From positions 302,413-366,412 of the forward strand of contig JALGPX010000014.1 of the NCBI GenBank assembly GCA_023515795.1: 64,000 nt of DNA. The letters are read 5' to 3'. Origin of the DNA: Amoeboaphelidium occidentale. Taxonomy: Eukaryota > Aphelidiomycota > Aphelidea. Below, piece after piece: positions 7,192 to 62,817 of this stretch (the stretch's first letter is position 1; the number at the start of each line of letters is the position of its first letter). The position numbers and the translations under genes are program-made. The notes beneath the pieces are model-generated. The model searched no databases, was not told the DNA's origin, and saw only the letters and a list, made by a program, of their open reading frames with translations.

Positions 7192-10100
7192 TCAGGACCA
7201 CGGAGTTGTTTTTGTCATAATCTCATACATAACACAGGACAACGAGTAAATATCGAACTTTTTGAAATCAATCCCAGCATAATTCTTTGATCTAAAACTT
7301 CTGTAAGCTTCAGGGGCCGCATATTGTGCTGACAGTCCACGCAAATTGATGAACTGGAACATCTTTGATGCAAGAATTCTATCAGACAGAATTTGAGTGA
7401 TTCCAAAATCAGTCAGGTAACTGGAAGGCCTACCATTGTTATCTTGAACAAGGATATTCTGTGGTTTGATATCGCAATGTGCTAAATAGTGGGAATGCAT
7501 AATATTCAATGCTGTCGCAAGTTCAGCAATTAATCTCAGAATGGCGGCATCTTTGCATTGTCTCTTGCGTAACCATTCGTAAAGCGAACCATCCGGATAA
7601 TATTTCAAAATGATAGACAAAGGCTTTTCCGTATAGCCAATAATCTCACAGAAGTGGGGGAAAGTCGACAGCATAATCATTATTCCAACTTCTTGATAGA
7701 AAGCTTCTTCCATAGCCGAGTTTGTGATTGTAACGACCTTCTGTATAACAAATTCAGCAACTTTCTTTCGTAACGCCGAATCCATCACTTTTGCTAGGAA
7801 TACTTCACCACCGCCACCAGATGCGACCTTTTTTACCCTGGCAAAAGCCGAGTGTTCAATTAGGTATGTAGCGTGTTTAGAGATGCCAATGACAGAGTTG
7901 ATAACGGTCTGTAAGTCTGTGACAGTAAAATCGGATTTTTCAACGGTATTTTCAGTGACTGTGGAATGTATAATCTTTCCCTGTTGCTTCTTAATCCTTG
8001 CCATGTAGGCACCTATGATTGCAACGGCAAATATTGCCGCAACAACGCCTATAATCAGCGAGATTGATCCTTCAAACTTCCAACTGTCGGTTAAGGAAGC
8101 TCTGACAGCCCTTTTCTGTCTAGTTCTCGCTTTTTTTGTTTCAATTAGAGCCGTAGAATGGGAGCCATAGCGCACAGGAAGGACTGGATCAAACAGCAAG
8201 ACAGAGCGATCCTCACTGCCTGCAATCACCGAGGAATTATGGCATAAAACAGCGGAAACGGACTTTGAGAAACCAGAGTATAAATCTTCATGTTTCTTAG
8301 TTACAGTATTCCAACGGCGAACGGCCCCTTCAGATCCACCGGAGAACAATGTATCGAAACAGAAAGCCAATGAAGTAACCGGGCCTAAATGTCCAGGTGA
8401 ACTCGAAGACGTCCTTTTGTACCTGAACTTTGGAGACATTTCTTCTAAAGACCATTCGATTATACTCTTATCATCTGAGGCAGAAAAGAGACTGCCGCCG
8501 TTAACAAGAAGATCATTAACTTGACCAACATGCCCTTTTAACTCAGATAGCTTTTCTTGGGTTTCAATTCTGAGTGAATAAATAACTCCTGATCTAGAGC
8601 CTGCATAAATCAATGCGTCTGTCGCAGCAACGCATACCAAGGGTGTCTGGAAATCAATAGTGATGGATGATTTTGTAGAATCTTTTCTGTCTTTAAGCAC
8701 GACCTTGTCATCATCAGAAATAATAACGAAATTGAAGTTATTAATTGCAAGATCCTTGAGTGGTAGAGACTTCGAGTTGTACACATCAATTGATTCGTTT
8801 TCTTCTGCAAGCGAAGATTGTAAAATAAGTCCATCAAGGCCCGAAGAATAAAGCGTGCCGTCAATGGCTGACAACGAGGTAACCGTTTTATCGTGATAGC
8901 TAAAGATTTTCATTAAAAACGCATTCTCAACGTCATATGATATAATTGATCCGCTTTTCAAACCAACAAATAACAAATTATTTTCAGCAGCAAGCGCGGT
9001 GACAGACGCATTCCTGTTTTCAAACGAGAATGCCACCTTTCGGGTTGCCATATTCCATTTTTTGATTGTTCCGTCAAATCCTGTGGAGTACAAAATATTT
9101 GATTCATCAAAGCAAAGAGAAAATACAACATCGTTGTGTCCTTGAAACAATTCGATAACCTGAAGCGAGTAAGAATCCCTCACTCTGATAATTCCATCTG
9201 CGTGGCTAGTGTAAATCCTCATTCCCCGAGAAATCATGTTACCGCATGCAATTGTCTCTACAAATTAGACAGAATTAGTATGATTTTACCGTCGATATTC
9301 GCCAAGACTTCACCACTCAGACTTGAAAGCCTCACTAACCCATCGGCTGTGCATGCTGCAATAGACTCTTCTGCGATCGAGATAACGAGAACACTTGCGA
9401 GTGCTATGAATTAAACTTCCGAAAGTAGGATTACCATTGAAAGTCTGAACAGTTTCAAGAGACTCGATATTCCATGCACGAATAGAAAAATCTGACGAAC
9501 CAGAATACAAAAAGCTTGAATATCGCTGAATAGATTCCACAATAGTAGTGTGTCCTTCAAATAATCCCAATTGAGACCCGGATGAAATGTTCCAGTGGTA
9601 AATAGAAGTACCAATTGGGACTGCATACACATTGTTCTGATCAACAGCAATTGAGATAATCGCCCTATTCGAACCTAAAATTTTAATTAATTACAGTAAG
9701 AGAATGTTACCAGTGAATGTTTTTGCAAGGGCCATGAGGGCGAGATCCCATTGCCTCACAGTTCTATCAGAACTCCCGGAGTATAAGTAGTTCTCGCTCG
9801 ATACTAAGCAATTAATCGAGACTGAGTTAGCGGCGAGAGCGGCGAATGGCTCTGTGCTATCAACAGTTGCATCCCATGCAGTTATCATGTCATCTTCTCC
9901 TCCGCTTATGATCAAATTCCTCCATGCAACAACAGCTCTGAGTTTAATGCTTCGACCATAGTATGAAAACAAATATGTTCCATTACGTGTATCCCATCGT
10001 AGAACACTGCCGTCAAGCGATCCGGTGTAAAGTGTTTCCTGTCCATAACCCATGCACATAATGGTACCGCCCTGGAAAGCAGGAAATTTAGCTAGAATTG

Positions 10101-10937
10101 CCCCGTCAGTCAAATTCCATTTTATGACTTCTTTTTCTGCGCCAGCCGAGTATAGATAACTGTCAAAACCCGCCACTACATAAACTCGATTCGAATGCCC
10201 TGTAAAGGAACGCTCCAAATCACCGGTCATAACATCCCAAGATAATACAGTTGTATCAGCAGAGGCAGAAAATAATACACCTTGGGACAAATAGATTGAA
10301 AAAACTGCCGCAGAGTGTCCCACGAAGCCAACAACTCGGTTACCGGTTTCGACAGATATTTTTTCAACGTATGGAGGCGATTCTGCTGCAACATAGAGGT
10401 GATCTCCATCTGCGATTATACTGAACACAAATCCACCAAACCCTACCAAAATTAGAAAGCTGTTTCAAGGTGAACATAACCTAATGTTTTGACAATTCTT
10501 CCAGAATTCAAATCCAATTCTCTAACTTTCGTATCACCGCCACCGCAAAAAACTCGATCATTATCAACTGTAATAGTCTCAATTTGAGCCCCAACAGATC
10601 CGAGCCATATCCTTTTGAGAACTGATCCTGTTTCCAAATCCCAAACTATGATCATATCATCGTAACCAGATGTGATCATTTTTGTATGGTTTGTGACAAG
10701 AAAAGATACCACCTTACTCTTATGGGCTCTGAATGTTCTTTGAACAATTCCTGTTTGGATGTCCTTCTGGATGATGTCGTTAGATGATGTGATCAATATC
10801 GAGTCTTCATAAACAGCCATTGAGCGCACGCTGGAAGCACCATCTTGCAACAAGAAACTTTTTCGGTGCTCTAAAGAAGCAACGGAGAGGCTAAAAGATG
10901 ACAGTGAGAAGAGGTACACTAGAAGGTTTGCAATCAT
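7192..10937 (-). CDS. Receptor-like protein: signal peptide, WD40 ectodomain, one TM, kinase domain
   Basis: Five exons: 10481-10937, 9711-10442, 9435-9674, 9290-9403, 7192-9257 (introns 38, 36, 31 and 32 nt). They total 1203 codons and keep frame at every join. A signal peptide (LLVYLFSLSSFSLSVAS) begins at ATG 10937. Residues ~25-900 consist of WD40-type repeats (IIVWDLETG, VLSWDVMTG, VIKWNLTDG, VLRWDTRNG, VRQWDLAL, IRAWNIES, IKKWNMAT, IIEWSLEE, VRRWNTVTK). A transmembrane helix (ISLIIGVVAAIFAVAIIGAYM) at ~911-932 is followed by basic residues. A protein kinase domain begins near 985: Gly-rich loop GGGGEV, HCDIKPQN catalytic loop, DFG, and an APE-like AAPEA. The ORF ends just after the helix-F region (MYEIMTKTTPWS), so the last ~80 residues of a kinase C-lobe are absent. 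Orientation predicts an extracellular or lumenal propeller and a cytosolic kinase. I know of no standard eukaryotic family with this order. Confidence 0.85.
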
Positions 10938-17500: not shown

Positions 17501-18451
17501 TTAGTATGCCATCCCTTGTTGATGACTTTTGCGTCTTGGCGGAGGAGGTCTACGTGGAGGCGGTGGACGTGCTGTTGTTGTGCGTGGACGAGGAGTAGTT
17601 GAGGTTGAAACTGTTGAAGTTGTAAGAGTTAAAGTTGACGTCGTGCTAGAGATTGGAACTGTAACACTGGAAGTTGGAGTAGGGCGCATAGGTGTACTGC
17701 TAGTAGGAGGTGGAGGAGGTGGAGGTACCCTTGTGGATGACTGCGGAGTTGGACGCGTTGAAGTTCTTGTAATTACCGTTGTGCGCGTAATTGAAGTAGT
17801 CCTCGTGGTTGGGCGGGTACTTGTGGTTGGCGTTGTGCGCGTAATTGAAGTAGTCCTTGTGGTTGGCGTTGTTGTCGTTGTTGTTGGCGGCGGTGCCATT
17901 GGAGTTGTACTAGTAGATGGTTTTGGAAAAGGAACGCTGGTTGAAACAGTTTCTGATGGAGGTGAAGGTGGAGGTGCAATTGGAGTTGTACTAGTAGATG
18001 GTTCTGGAAAAGGAACGCTGGTTGAAACAGTTTCTGATGGAGGTGGAGGTGGAACATATGAAGGAACGCTTGTTGTTGAAGTCTCGTATCCAGGAGGAGG
18101 TACAACATATGAAGGAACGCAGGTTGAAACAGTTTCTGATGGAGGTGGAGGCGGAGGTGGAACATATGCAGGAGGAGGTTCGGGGTACGTAGGAGTTTCA
18201 GATGGTGTCGGAACAACATAACTTGGAATTTCATGATAGTCTGTTGGTGGAACTTCGTAAACAAGTGAGGTTGAGGCATCAGGGTACACAATTTCGTATG
18301 TTGAAGAAGCGGGGTACGCGATTTCGTATGTGGAAGCATCAGGATAAGCAACACTTGAAGTAGCAGCACTTGGACATGGCGCAGCATCATTTGGTTCCGG
18401 AATTGCCAATTGCAATGAAATCAGAGTTGAAACAATGCACAAGAGCTTCAT
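17501..18451 (-). CDS. Secreted Pro/Thr/Ser-rich protein A
   Basis: 316 residues, single exon. A clear signal peptide (KLLCIVSTLISLQLA) is followed by PCPS and then almost entirely Pro, Thr, Ser, Tyr and Val: degenerate tandem blocks of P-runs plus SETVSTSVP, then TTTxTRTTSITRTT-type Thr/Arg repeats, ending in a basic Pro-rich tail. Such composition is typical of heavily O-glycosylated wall or mucin-like proteins. There is no transmembrane segment and no evident GPI signal at the C-terminus. The adjacent gene at 19100-20005 on the same strand is a paralogue with the same signal-peptide pattern (MKL...P.PCPS) and the same block order, so this is a tandem duplication. Role (extracellular matrix, wall or host-attachment) is inference from composition. 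Confidence 0.8.
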   Translation of the reverse strand: MKLLCIVSTLISLQLAIPEPNDAAPCPSAATSSVAYPDASTYEIAYPASSTYEIVYPDASTSLVYEVPPTDYHEIPSYVVPTPSETPTYPEPPPAYVPPPPPPPSETVSTCVPSYVVPPPGYETSTTSVPSYVPPPPPSETVSTSVPFPEPSTSTTPIAPPPSPPSETVSTSVPFPKPSTSTTPMAPPPTTTTTTPTTRTTSITRTTPTTSTRPTTRTTSITRTTVITRTSTRPTPQSSTRVPPPPPPPTSSTPMRPTPTSSVTVPISSTTSTLTLTTSTVSTSTTPRPRTTTARPPPPRRPPPPRRKSHQQGMAY

Positions 18452-24089: not shown

Positions 24090-26219
24090 CTATTTTGCTA
24101 CTTTTGTTACAAGTTTGACTAAATTAGCCAAAGGAGACTGTATGAAGACGTAAAGGCAGGAACCCAAGAGACAAGACCATAAGAATATTCCACCAAGACT
24201 CAAGAACAAAGAAGCAAGTCTGAAAGGATACTCACGAAGAACGGTTCCAAAGAAAACATGTAGCACGATTATATGAACAAGATACATCGAAAATGTGAGT
24301 CTTCCTAAAACAGCCCATCCTCTCCATGACGCAAATCGAGTAAGAATGTGTGTGGATTCCGGCGAGACAACAGAAGGTAGAGCCAATAGTCCTAAGCCTA
24401 AAGCCCAAAATATTCTAGATAATCCATTATAAGCAGCATTCATGTAAATACCATGGTCCTTCTCTGTCTCTTTCAATTCTTCAGTTGCGTTTCGGATCAC
24501 AAATGGCAAGTACAGAGTGACGAGCAACAATACTCCGCCAAGTATTTGAAGTAAAGGAGTAACAAGTCTACTAATTGTGACTCTTCTTTTTCTCAGACTG
24601 AAACTGTAGTATGCAAAAATCACTCCGATCGTAGATGAATTCAAGTGATTGTAAGGTTTTGTCAAGAACTCTTTTAGGAACAATGGCATACCCTTTGCAT
24701 CTCTATCAAATAATACTGTTGGAATACTGTACTTCATAGTAAGCAACGCACTTGTGCATGACGCTGCAATTATTGCAAGAATTAATGCGAGGAAACCAAA
24801 ATATTTCCAGCATTTGCCAAACCACAAAGGAACAATGAAAAGAGGTAGTAGAAGATACAATTGAAAATTGATAGACATGAACCATGACCACGGGACACAT
24901 ACATCCTTTGTTTCAGTAGGATAAAAGTTATTGATGTACAATAGATTTGTCCACCAGAATCGCGAGCAAGTAGATTCGACACTATCCACTTGTTTGAACC
25001 AAACAGGACCATTGCCCATTAGTGGGAACAAAAAGAACCAAGTAAACAAAGTGATAGCATACAAAGGCGTAACTCTGAAAAGGAAAGAAAATACGTAGTC
25101 AATGTAATTGAACATTTTTCTCGTGACATTCTTGGAAAAAGTCAAGTAAGCAGCAAAAAAGGCAGTTGTAAACAAAAAAGTATCAAGCGACAAGGGAGAA
25201 TTGCTGAGAATCATCATAGCCGAGTAATCAGTCATTTCCAAAACAGTTTTCAAATCTACAGGAGCAATGTCCATGATCAGAAGAAATGTAACACCTAGCA
25301 TTGCCCAAAGTAAAGATATGACTTTGAAGACATTGAATAGATTGACTTCTTCATGAGCTTGTGGTGAGCCTCTAAAAAGAGATGGTATTGTAGAGTAAAG
25401 CGAGAAGCAAGTAATCAGGCGGAATAGGAAAGATCTCTCCGGTGGTTCTTGGGTTTTGATTATCAAAGGTGTATCTTCTAGAGGTTCAGCCAATGTGTCT
25501 GAACTCGATGAGGACAAATATTCCTTCGGTGGTTTTCCTTCTTCTTGTGTAATATCACAAGTAGCCGGAGTGCTCTTGTCCTTTGCTCTCAGAGCGTAAA
25601 CTAGAACATACTCTAGAATTGTAGCGCCAACGCTGAACAGGACAATTATGACCAAACAGCTGAGAAATGTAATCGCAGAAGCTGACCATTCAACTTTACC
25701 AAAAGGATGTACATTTGTAACATTATAGGAAAAGTTTAACTGTTCATCTTGAACAAAGTTTGAAACAAGTAGAGTGAATGGTGCCTGCTTGTAGAAAGCT
25801 TCTACTTTGGAGGTCATCATAACTTGATCACTCCCATCACCTGGAATCGCACCTTTGATATACTCAATGATCTGATTCACAACATCTTTGACATCTTCAG
25901 TATCACATGTAGATGGTAAGCAAACACCCAAGCTCGATGGCAAAACATTCCCAGCCACAACAAGATCACCTTCAACCAGATTATAAGTGAAATTGAAACC
26001 ATCTTCGCTATCATCAACAAGTGAAACACATTCTTCAAGATCACCCAGAGATGTGAATGATCCACGCAGAGCACCAACTGGTTTGCCCCATGAGTCCAAA
26101 GCTTTTACTAACAAAATCTTCTTTTCCAACAAGCCTGAGATAGAGCCAATACATTCCCAGGACAATGATAGAGAGCCAGTAAGCGATAAGAGTAATATCG
26201 CAAGTCTCACAGCCAACAT
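24090..26219 (-). CDS. NRF-6-like acyltransferase-3 family membrane protein, catalytic residues missing
   Basis: 709 residues from ATG 26219, which opens into a signal peptide (LAVRLAILLLSLTGSLSLS); the frame extends upstream without ATG. The N-terminal lumenal domain has the NRF motifs (DSWGKPVGALRGSFTSLGDLEEC, then SLGVCLPSTCD), then a TM near 205, a cytosolic loop, and about ten TM helices of the acyltransferase-3 fold. Family members transfer acyl groups across membranes using an R-x10-H motif in the first helix of that fold. Here the corresponding residues are Lys299 and Val310 (KVISLLWAMLGV), so catalysis is doubtful. The paralogue at 60688-62817 has the same length and keeps Arg and His. 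It may be a pseudo-enzyme, transporter or regulator. Confidence 0.85.
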   Translation of the reverse strand: MLAVRLAILLLSLTGSLSLSWECIGSISGLLEKKILLVKALDSWGKPVGALRGSFTSLGDLEECVSLVDDSEDGFNFTYNLVEGDLVVAGNVLPSSLGVCLPSTCDTEDVKDVVNQIIEYIKGAIPGDGSDQVMMTSKVEAFYKQAPFTLLVSNFVQDEQLNFSYNVTNVHPFGKVEWSASAITFLSCLVIIVLFSVGATILEYVLVYALRAKDKSTPATCDITQEEGKPPKEYLSSSSSDTLAEPLEDTPLIIKTQEPPERSFLFRLITCFSLYSTIPSLFRGSPQAHEEVNLFNVFKVISLLWAMLGVTFLLIMDIAPVDLKTVLEMTDYSAMMILSNSPLSLDTFLFTTAFFAAYLTFSKNVTRKMFNYIDYVFSFLFRVTPLYAITLFTWFFLFPLMGNGPVWFKQVDSVESTCSRFWWTNLLYINNFYPTETKDVCVPWSWFMSINFQLYLLLPLFIVPLWFGKCWKYFGFLALILAIIAASCTSALLTMKYSIPTVLFDRDAKGMPLFLKEFLTKPYNHLNSSTIGVIFAYYSFSLRKRRVTISRLVTPLLQILGGVLLLVTLYLPFVIRNATEELKETEKDHGIYMNAAYNGLSRIFWALGLGLLALPSVVSPESTHILTRFASWRGWAVLGRLTFSMYLVHIIVLHVFFGTVLREYPFRLASLFLSLGGIFLWSCLLGSCLYVFIQSPLANLVKLVTKVAK

Positions 26220-26390
26220 GACCTGTGAGCTGAAACAAGTTTTTGCGAAAGAACAAACAACGCCAAACAATTCCCAGGACCTTAAGACCTCTATGAGCCA
26301 TTAAATTTTAACCTAATCACTGTTGGATGACTCATCCTCTGCAAATTAACATGCGCCAACTCACTCTGTCCTAAACTTTTTACTGAAAGA

Positions 26391-60687: not shown

Positions 60688-62817
60688 ATGAAATCATTCC
60701 GATTGGCCCTGTGGGCTGCGCTCTCTGCCTCCGTTGCATTTAGTATCTCTGATAACTGCACGGCTGATATCCAATCCCTCTTGGCGAAGCAGACGTTGCT
60801 TACTCAAGCGATCGACTCTTTTGGTAAGCCTGTTGGTGCTTTTCGTGGTTCCTTCTCTTCTCTTGGAGACTACGTTGAGTGCACAGAGTTAATTGATGCA
60901 GATCTCGAGAATCCTTTATCATTCCGATATGCTTTGGTTGAAGGTGCATTGATTCTGCAAGCTGGAAATGCTCCAATTCCTCCTTTGGCTTCATCGCTTG
61001 GTGTTTGTTTTCCTTCTCAGTGTGATAAGGATGATATCACGGAAGGAATGGGTCTGATTTTTGAGTTCTTGAAGAGTAAATTGGGTGGTGGCGGTGGTGG
61101 TCCTCCTGGTCTTGACGGTGTTTCACAGTTAGCTGGACAATCATCATCATTTTTCAGGACTGTAGCAAATACCGCGTACTCGGCGCTATTTGACGAGAGT
61201 GCACCTGAGCAGCCTGGCCTTAATGTTGCGTATATTGTTAATAGTGTTAATTTTGCGTATGAAGCAGATTGGGATACTCCATCGATCGTTGTTTTGTCTG
61301 TATTGGGAGGATTAACGGCCATCTGTATTTTGGCTACTCTGGCTGATTATTTGATGAAACGCTTTACCGAGTCGGAACTGGATAAGGAAGCTCTTTCAAT
61401 GCTTGGTCATTCTGGTAGTGATGCCACGCTGGGTGAAAGATCACCATTGCTAACTGATCTATCTGCTTCTCGCGCCACCGATTATTCCGTTCATCCAAGA
61501 AAGAAGAATATTTTCGTGAAAATATTGCATGCATTCTCATTGTACAAGAATATTCCAATTTTGTTATCTAACAAAACACCCGCACCTGAGTTGAATATCC
61601 TTAACCTTTTGAGGTTGGTCTCAATTTGGTGGGTTGTAATGGGACACACTTTCCTTACAACGGCTTTAGAGTATGCGCATGTCGACTTGTTGAATGTATT
61701 CAGTGTTACCAAAGATTCATCTGTAATGATATTTTTAAATGCATTCTTTTCTGTTGAGACATTCTTCTACTTGAGTGCTTTCTTGGTCTCCTATATTGCA
61801 TTCAACACCGAGAATTTCCTCAAGAAGTTTAACTACTTGAAGTATGCATTGTTTCGTTATTTGAGATTGACTCCGTCTTATGCATTGACTTTATTCTTTT
61901 GGACTTATGTTTTCAAGAATCTTGGTGAAGGTCCTGTTTGGTTCAGGAAAGTTCAGAATATTAAGGAATCCTGTAGTAATTATTGGTGGACAAACATGCT
62001 TTACATTAATAATATTTACATGGATAAGATTGAGTCGGTTTGCATGCCATGGTCTTGGTACTTGAGCGTTGATTATCAGTTGTGGTTAGCATTGCCATTG
62101 TTCTTGCTCCCATTGTTTTACCTTTCGCACAGAAAATGGATCGGATACTTGTGGTTGGGTGCTGGAACCATTGGTGGTCTAATTTCTGTAATCGTCTCCA
62201 ATTACGTTGAAGAAATTCCTGCTACGTTTACAGGTCAAGGCGATGGCTCTATGCGTTGGATGACCTTGTTCTACTTTAGGCCTTACAGTCATTTGTCTGT
62301 TTCATTGCTTGCAGTCTTTGCTGCTGCTTGCGCCTCAAGTTTGAGAGCAAGAAATTACAAGATCAATTATGTTTTAATTGCATTGAGTCAAGCGTTGGGA
62401 GCTGTTTTAATGATAATCACCGTGTACTATCCTTATGATGAAGTCAAGAATCCTGGAACATGGACCAACTTGAGAAATGCAATGTTCAATGGCTTCTCAA
62501 AGATCTTATGGTCTCTTGGGTTATCATTCTTCATCTTGCCATCAATTATTAACCCACAAAGAACAAGATTATTGACAACTTTTAGCGCTTGGTCTGGATG
62601 GAAAGTTGCTGCAAAATTAACTTACTCGGTTTACTTGGTACATTACATGCTCAACTACGTTTTCTTTGCTTCTAGATTGAGAGAGGAAGCTTACAAACCT
62701 GCCACTTTTGTGTTTAACTTTGGTGGCGTCTTATGGTGGTCATACTTGGCAGCTGTTCTGATGTTCCTGTTCATTGAAGCACCCTTCGGAAACTTGCTGA
62801 AACTCTTGAAGAAATAA
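60688..62817 (+). CDS. NRF-6-like acyltransferase-3 family membrane protein (catalytic motif intact)
   Basis: 709 residues, intronless, starting with a signal peptide (LALWAALSASVAFS). The N-terminal NRF domain has DSFGKPVGAFRGSFSSLGDYVEC and SLGVCFPSQCD; a Gly-run (GGGGGG) lies near 137. A TM near 205-225 is followed by a cytosolic loop and a ~10-helix acyltransferase-3 region. The R-x10-H motif is intact: Arg309 and His320 in RLVSIWWVVMGH. Later blocks PVWFRKV, CSNYWWTNMLYINN and CMPWSWYLSVDYQL are shared with the paralogue at 24090-26219. Probably acylates a lumenal or extracellular lipid/glycan; substrate unknown. Confidence 0.9.
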   Translation: MKSFRLALWAALSASVAFSISDNCTADIQSLLAKQTLLTQAIDSFGKPVGAFRGSFSSLGDYVECTELIDADLENPLSFRYALVEGALILQAGNAPIPPLASSLGVCFPSQCDKDDITEGMGLIFEFLKSKLGGGGGGPPGLDGVSQLAGQSSSFFRTVANTAYSALFDESAPEQPGLNVAYIVNSVNFAYEADWDTPSIVVLSVLGGLTAICILATLADYLMKRFTESELDKEALSMLGHSGSDATLGERSPLLTDLSASRATDYSVHPRKKNIFVKILHAFSLYKNIPILLSNKTPAPELNILNLLRLVSIWWVVMGHTFLTTALEYAHVDLLNVFSVTKDSSVMIFLNAFFSVETFFYLSAFLVSYIAFNTENFLKKFNYLKYALFRYLRLTPSYALTLFFWTYVFKNLGEGPVWFRKVQNIKESCSNYWWTNMLYINNIYMDKIESVCMPWSWYLSVDYQLWLALPLFLLPLFYLSHRKWIGYLWLGAGTIGGLISVIVSNYVEEIPATFTGQGDGSMRWMTLFYFRPYSHLSVSLLAVFAAACASSLRARNYKINYVLIALSQALGAVLMIITVYYPYDEVKNPGTWTNLRNAMFNGFSKILWSLGLSFFILPSIINPQRTRLLTTFSAWSGWKVAAKLTYSVYLVHYMLNYVFFASRLREEAYKPATFVFNFGGVLWWSYLAAVLMFLFIEAPFGNLLKLLKK

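Follow-up and report, generated by a model that had tools for sequence, protein, structure and literature searches.

An expanded family of predicted WD40 receptor-like kinases with a short kinase domain in the aphelid Amoeboaphelidium occidentale

A gene on the minus strand of a 64,000-nucleotide stretch of Amoeboaphelidium occidentale DNA (contig JALGPX010000014.1, positions 302,413 to 366,412; hereafter the window) is predicted by splicing and translation to encode a 1202-residue protein from five exons (10937-7192). The favored interpretation, with a probability of roughly 75%, is that this is an aphelid type I membrane receptor-like Ser/Thr kinase with a signal peptide, a WD40 ectodomain of about 21 blades, one transmembrane (TM) helix and a kinase domain ending after helix F, and that it belongs to an expanded family. 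The 1202-residue frame, the coordinates and the four introns had been proposed in an earlier note on this DNA, and all were reproduced, along with the strand, by splicing and translation. The TM helix and kinase are encoded by the same exon (exon 5) as the last WD40 repeats. A fifth intron extending the kinase was dropped as a candidate, as the frame then ends after residue 1200 and nothing is gained. The features of the gene and its product, with the evidence for each, are as follows.

10481..10937, minus strand: exon 1, with start codon, signal peptide and first WD40 repeats (spliced translation, frame)
10443..10480, minus strand: intron 1, 38 nt, GT-AG (splicing of sequence)
9711..10442, minus strand: exon 2, WD40 repeats (spliced translation)
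9675..9710, minus strand: intron 2, 36 nt, GT-AG (splicing of sequence)
9435..9674, minus strand: exon 3, WD40 repeats (spliced translation)
9404..9434, minus strand: intron 3, 31 nt, GT-AG (splicing of sequence)
9290..9403, minus strand: exon 4, WD40 repeats (spliced translation)
9258..9289, minus strand: intron 4, 32 nt, GT-AG (splicing of sequence)
7192..9257, minus strand: exon 5, with last WD40 repeats, stalk, TM helix, juxtamembrane region, kinase and stop at 7194-7192 (spliced translation, model)
10875..10937, minus strand: putative signal peptide, residues about 1-21, before the mature start LEHxKSF (hydropathy; paralog starts)
8191..10853, minus strand: WD40 ectodomain, residues about 29-870, introns included in the span (Pfam; paralog model)
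8005..8070, minus strand: TM helix, residues about 911-932 (hydropathy; helix in last-exon model; paralogs)
7195..7839, minus strand: kinase domain, residues 988-1202, ending after helix F, without helices G-I (Pfam; models; VIA match to Csk)
7456..7479, minus strand: catalytic loop HCDIKPQN, residues 1108-1115, non-RD type (translation; HCD invariant)
7402..7410, minus strand: DFG motif, residues 1131-1133 (translation; invariant in alignment)

The signal peptide was called from hydropathy, and its cleavage site was placed by eye. The top hydrophobic 19-mer of the protein begins at residue 913, and the N-terminus forms the next hydrophobic stretch separate from it, in agreement with the signal peptide and the TM helix at about residues 911-932 that had been noticed earlier. 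A hydrophobic start lies ahead of the mature N-terminus in 14 of 15 paralog upstream stretches, which were searched with a pattern of which the motif LEHxKSF formed part, the remaining stretch having no matching frame. These paralog starts speak against a real first exon lacking a signal peptide, a case raised in the earlier note. A TM-like segment is present in all 36 paralog frames scored, and Lys and Arg residues around it number 51 before versus 139 after, with an excess after in 32 of the 36 frames. This predicted topology, with an N-terminal signal peptide (by hydropathy) and one TM helix flanked by positive residues towards the kinase, matches type I receptor-like kinases.

Pfam finds WD40-type families throughout the ectodomain, as expected from the long WD40 run reported earlier (PF00400, E 1.4e-34 for the whole protein, with no single repeat passing alone). 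A predicted model of a full-length paralog has 83 strands in about 21 blades, so that the propeller count by structure prediction suggested in the earlier note fits three seven-bladed propellers, which is probably how the ectodomain is built. Four-stranded WD blades in a closed seven-bladed ring are seen in the model at residues 313-582, which align over 265 residues (root-mean-square deviation 1.6), and the two other rings are suggested by the strand count. The ectodomains diverge more between paralogs than the kinases do.

In the kinase, the Pfam Pkinase match (residues 988-1202, E 4.1e-26) runs from profile position 3 to 198 of 263, and the C-lobe is thus incomplete. This truncation had gone unnoticed when the HCDIKPQN and DFG motifs, both of which were found again, were first pointed out. 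Two sets of diverse sequences (25 and 34) show little or no variation at the catalytic Lys and Glu, the Asp of HCD, the Asn and DFG. The family kinases also conserve the APE motif as well as helix F and its Asp; they retain subdomains VIII and IX and lack a complete C-lobe with helices G-I. In all 38 of the best-scoring family genes read, the kinase ends 1-8 residues past the Pro-Trp that follows helix F. The predicted models (last exon and full-length paralog) also end after helix F, and the kinases of distant metagenomic relatives end in like manner. Judged by sequence, the kinase is short by design across the family. No helices G-I were found in up to 1000 bases 3' of the 38 stops in a search with 37 ordinary C-lobe pieces. 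The strongest matches in this search (E 3.6e-5, 1.3e-4 and 0.002, the last on the other strand) all come from one piece, P0069, which extends only to helix F and whose first two downstream matches fall on neighbouring kinase copies; without it, the best match has E 0.006 over 23 residues. Partial kinase copies adjoin full family genes 3' of L026 (contig C148) and L034 (contig C73). A PDB sequence search with the kinase returned general kinases only, the best (E 1.3e-16) being a chain named epidermal growth factor receptor.

The end of the Pkinase match at position 198 and the end of the models after helix F would also fit a pseudokinase, which would bind ATP or a partner without phosphorylation and signal by allostery or scaffolding, the loss of helices G-I being a loss of substrate handling. 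However, a pseudokinase would not need catalytic residues that are invariant or nearly so in both sets of diverse sequences, and this alternative is rather unlikely. RIO kinases, whose kinase fold is trimmed and lacks subdomains VIII, X and XI, are also treated as enzymes in the passages of PMC2564912 that deal with them. Thus, a short kinase has precedent. The aphelid family likewise lacks subdomains X and XI, but unlike RIO kinases it retains VIII, with a conserved APE, and IX (helix F). RIO kinases, moreover, are not known to be membrane receptors.

Outside the genome, one protein from a metagenome shares 95% identity with the last exon over 681 residues, and its C-terminus falls at the same residue. 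Of the close metagenome relatives (26 in all), 10 have a match of at least 80% to an A. occidentale protein; the other 16 have none, but as only part of the family was included in this comparison, they may have unsampled counterparts. Those homologues in the protein search that are named A. occidentale belong to this genome as paralogs and do not come from a second species. Searches with two distant members brought in 19 further proteins that pass the filter, with ectodomains taken from precomputed domains. Ectodomains are WD40-type in 13 of these 19. In the other six, a short kinase of this kind is borne on a different ectodomain: P0124 (1243 residues) carries NHL repeats together with cysteine-rich repeats of the ephrin-receptor-like type, the ectodomains of P0137 and P0138 belong by their match to a beta-propeller repeat family, and those of P0136, P0139 and P0140 have no match above any family's cut-off.

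The gene is one member of a large family in its own genome. The search covered 11.3 Mb in 204 contigs; the genome is given as 13.56 Mb in all, with about 7,500 proteins, in a passage of PMC10608142. With exon 5 (687 residues) as query, 66 rows were obtained, corresponding to at least 65 separate loci including the gene itself, the locus counts being lower bounds as only the best candidates were scored. Identity of the paralogs to exon 5 is 38-54% (the gene itself excluded), some matches being partial. Six of the loci lie in open frames of 1172-1248 residues, with room for the whole protein unspliced; these frames were matched over the exon 5 region. A kinase-only search gave at least 144 rows, pieces and general kinases included. 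The loci are often neighbours, 45 of the at least 65 being on 16 contigs that bear two or more. Three family loci have internal stop codons within the match (C97:83750-85660, C62:4056-5942 and C164:14835-16793) and may be decayed copies or contain introns. In two very long frames, at C177:13338-14084 (4694 residues) and C15:8821-9576 (3198 residues), the kinase matches the receptor family and ends near profile position 200-212. The gene is real by these comparisons and a family member; the expansion and the family-wide lack of helices G-I had been missed in the earlier note.

Selection was assessed in five paralog pairs, with the ratio of nonsynonymous to synonymous substitution rates (dN/dS) uncomputable in 2 of 15 comparisons because synonymous sites were saturated. 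The ratio is 0.16-0.23 in the ectodomain part (four pairs) and 0.08-0.26 in the kinase where computable, and the compared copies are thus under constraint. In the neighbouring pair L010/L012 (contig C36), codons 505-669 of the exon alignment, 165 kinase codons, are identical, whereas 25 of 35 codons differ just before this block and 15 of 18 just after it, a sign of gene conversion between the two loci. This block and the frequent sharing of contigs would be in keeping with a family made up mainly of adhesion or variable surface proteins, in which the kinase is secondary and neighbouring copies and gene conversion make new combinations. However, what conversion makes uniform here is the kinase and not the ectodomain, conservation is higher in the kinase, and the ectodomain ratios indicate no positive selection overall, so that such a role is unlikely to be the main one.

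Several results weigh against the interpretation as a type I receptor kinase. The structures are models of a full-length paralog and of the last exon of the window gene, each with a predicted template modelling score (pTM) under 0.5. The b-c and d-a loops are usually regarded as the binding side of WD40 propellers, whereas in a loop-by-loop variability test the most variable loops are a-b and c-d; the low variability of b-c and d-a may be because the WD40 structure itself constrains them. N-glycosylation sequons in the ectodomain part are not enriched relative to shuffles (123 versus 153 expected, z -2.9), and thus give no support to an outside location. In the stalk and TM helix dN/dS is higher (0.33-0.54), which fits weak constraint there. 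HND or HSD replaces HCD in two distant relatives, and the absence of helices G-I might leave the kinase inactive.

The lack of sequon enrichment would also suit a lumenal ectodomain in an endoplasmic reticulum (ER) stress sensor. IRE1 and PERK combine a beta-rich domain in the lumen with a single TM helix and a kinase at the C-terminus, and the topology predicted here (signal peptide, beta domain, TM helix and kinase) is the same. However, sensing of a single internal state needs no family of at least 65 loci with diverging ectodomains. After the TM helix, IRE1 carries an RNase domain and PERK a full kinase, whereas the protein described here ends after helix F, with no RNase or other tail trailing the kinase. 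An ER sensor is quite improbable on these grounds. Finally, an artefact, in which wrong splicing joined two genes, one for a secreted WD40 protein and one for a kinase, or in which an error in the sequence or an overlooked intron cut the kinase short, could be argued from introns inferred from sequence alone and from a few Pkinase-type matches that pass through stops to profile positions 227-247 (C73:46533, C165:2020, C76:33829 and C143:87284), but is hardly credible and is contradicted by the paralogs, as the TM helix, kinase and last WD40 repeats lie in one exon, six paralog frames are long enough for the whole protein, the same kinase end recurs in 38 of 38 genes and in the 95% identical metagenome protein, and no helices G-I were found in up to 1000 bases downstream of the 38 stops. 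The long unbroken paralog frames likewise argue against transcripts that split the WD40 and kinase parts, which the earlier note had named as a possible outcome.

The receptor-kinase interpretation can be compared with several known systems. The plant non-RD receptor-like kinases EFR, FLS2 and XA21 have a signal peptide, repeats and one TM helix and belong to large lineage-specific families. The aphelid family shares with them a signal peptide, a repeat ectodomain, one TM helix and a non-RD Ser/Thr-type kinase, but has WD40 repeats instead of leucine-rich repeats (LRRs) and a kinase without helices G-I. From the HCD motif to the C-terminus there are 178 residues in the plant LRR receptor-like kinase P0126, the only one retrieved (27% identical to the relative P0048), versus 94-121 in the aphelid-type family. 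A non-RD catalytic loop is known from plant immune receptor kinases, according to a passage of PMC8463890. The resemblance of the HCD loop to theirs is a likeness and no test of function.

In bacterial WD40 kinases the kinase lies far from the C-terminus and mostly has an HRD loop, whereas the aphelid order is reversed: PkwA of Thermomonospora curvata has an N-terminal kinase and C-terminal WD40 repeats. The bacterial proteins match only partially (P0051 and below, 20-33% identity over 9-67% of the query, a range in which P0052 and P0060 are relatives of the aphelid-type family and not of the bacterial kind). The kinase motif is trailed by 409-1691 further residues in 35 of 144 retrieved homologues, mostly bacterial-kind WD40 kinases, with one fused model from the same genome and a few proteins without WD40 repeats; this bears out the reversal of the bacterial order remarked on in the earlier note. 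MET/RON (Sema) and ROS1 (YWTD) resemble the aphelid family in having a beta-propeller ectodomain on a single-pass receptor kinase, but their propellers are of other families and their kinases are full tyrosine kinases.

In the mechanism proposed for the family, the signal peptide would direct the WD40 ectodomain to the outside or the secretory lumen, and the TM helix would join it to a cytoplasmic kinase. The propellers would recognise a ligand outside the cell, perhaps one carried by the algal host or by some other cell, ligand binding would cluster the receptors, and the clustered short kinases would phosphorylate each other or a partner. As helices G-I are missing, substrate docking must come otherwise, for example from dimer contacts or a partner. 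The family would then probably serve to sense outside cues, perhaps host algae. A more tentative reading, given somewhat less than even odds, is of a separate superfamily in aphelids and their relatives, in which a short kinase is borne on interchangeable ectodomains (WD40, NHL with cysteine-rich repeats, and other propeller-like repeats), expanded in an algal parasite like the LRR receptor kinases in plants, with a partner or dimer completing the substrate side.

Elsewhere in the window, two multi-pass frames that look alike, each with a signal-like start, are present at 24090-26270 (minus strand) and 60688-62817 (plus strand); judged by eye, they are similar to acyltransferase-3 proteins of the nose-resistant-to-fluoxetine kind. 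A frame at 17501-18451 (minus strand) encodes a secreted-looking protein with Thr/Ser/Pro-rich repeats.

Receptor-like kinases of aphelids are mentioned in a passage of a 2023 paper that cites Mikhailov et al. 2022 (PMC10608142), and a first description is therefore not claimed. Of the previously undescribed class put forward in the earlier note, the type I layout with a WD40 ectodomain is supported, but its novelty is limited by that mention. None of the literature matches listed describes an aphelid WD40 receptor kinase, which is no proof of absence, and the kinase and receptor passages of PMC11767097, PMC8657485 and PMC10406608 do not mention one.

Aphelids are algal parasitoids and the sister group of Fungi (in a passage of PMC10608142), and Fungi are described, in a passage of PMC2939053, as being without LRR pattern-recognition receptors. 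The family amounts to a large receptor-like kinase repertoire in the small genome of the sister group of Fungi. If the interpretation is true, it would be a candidate system for algal sensing by aphelid parasites and an independent expansion of receptor kinases, and the conserved lack of helices G-I with a retained active site would offer a direct test of the smallest working protein kinase domain.
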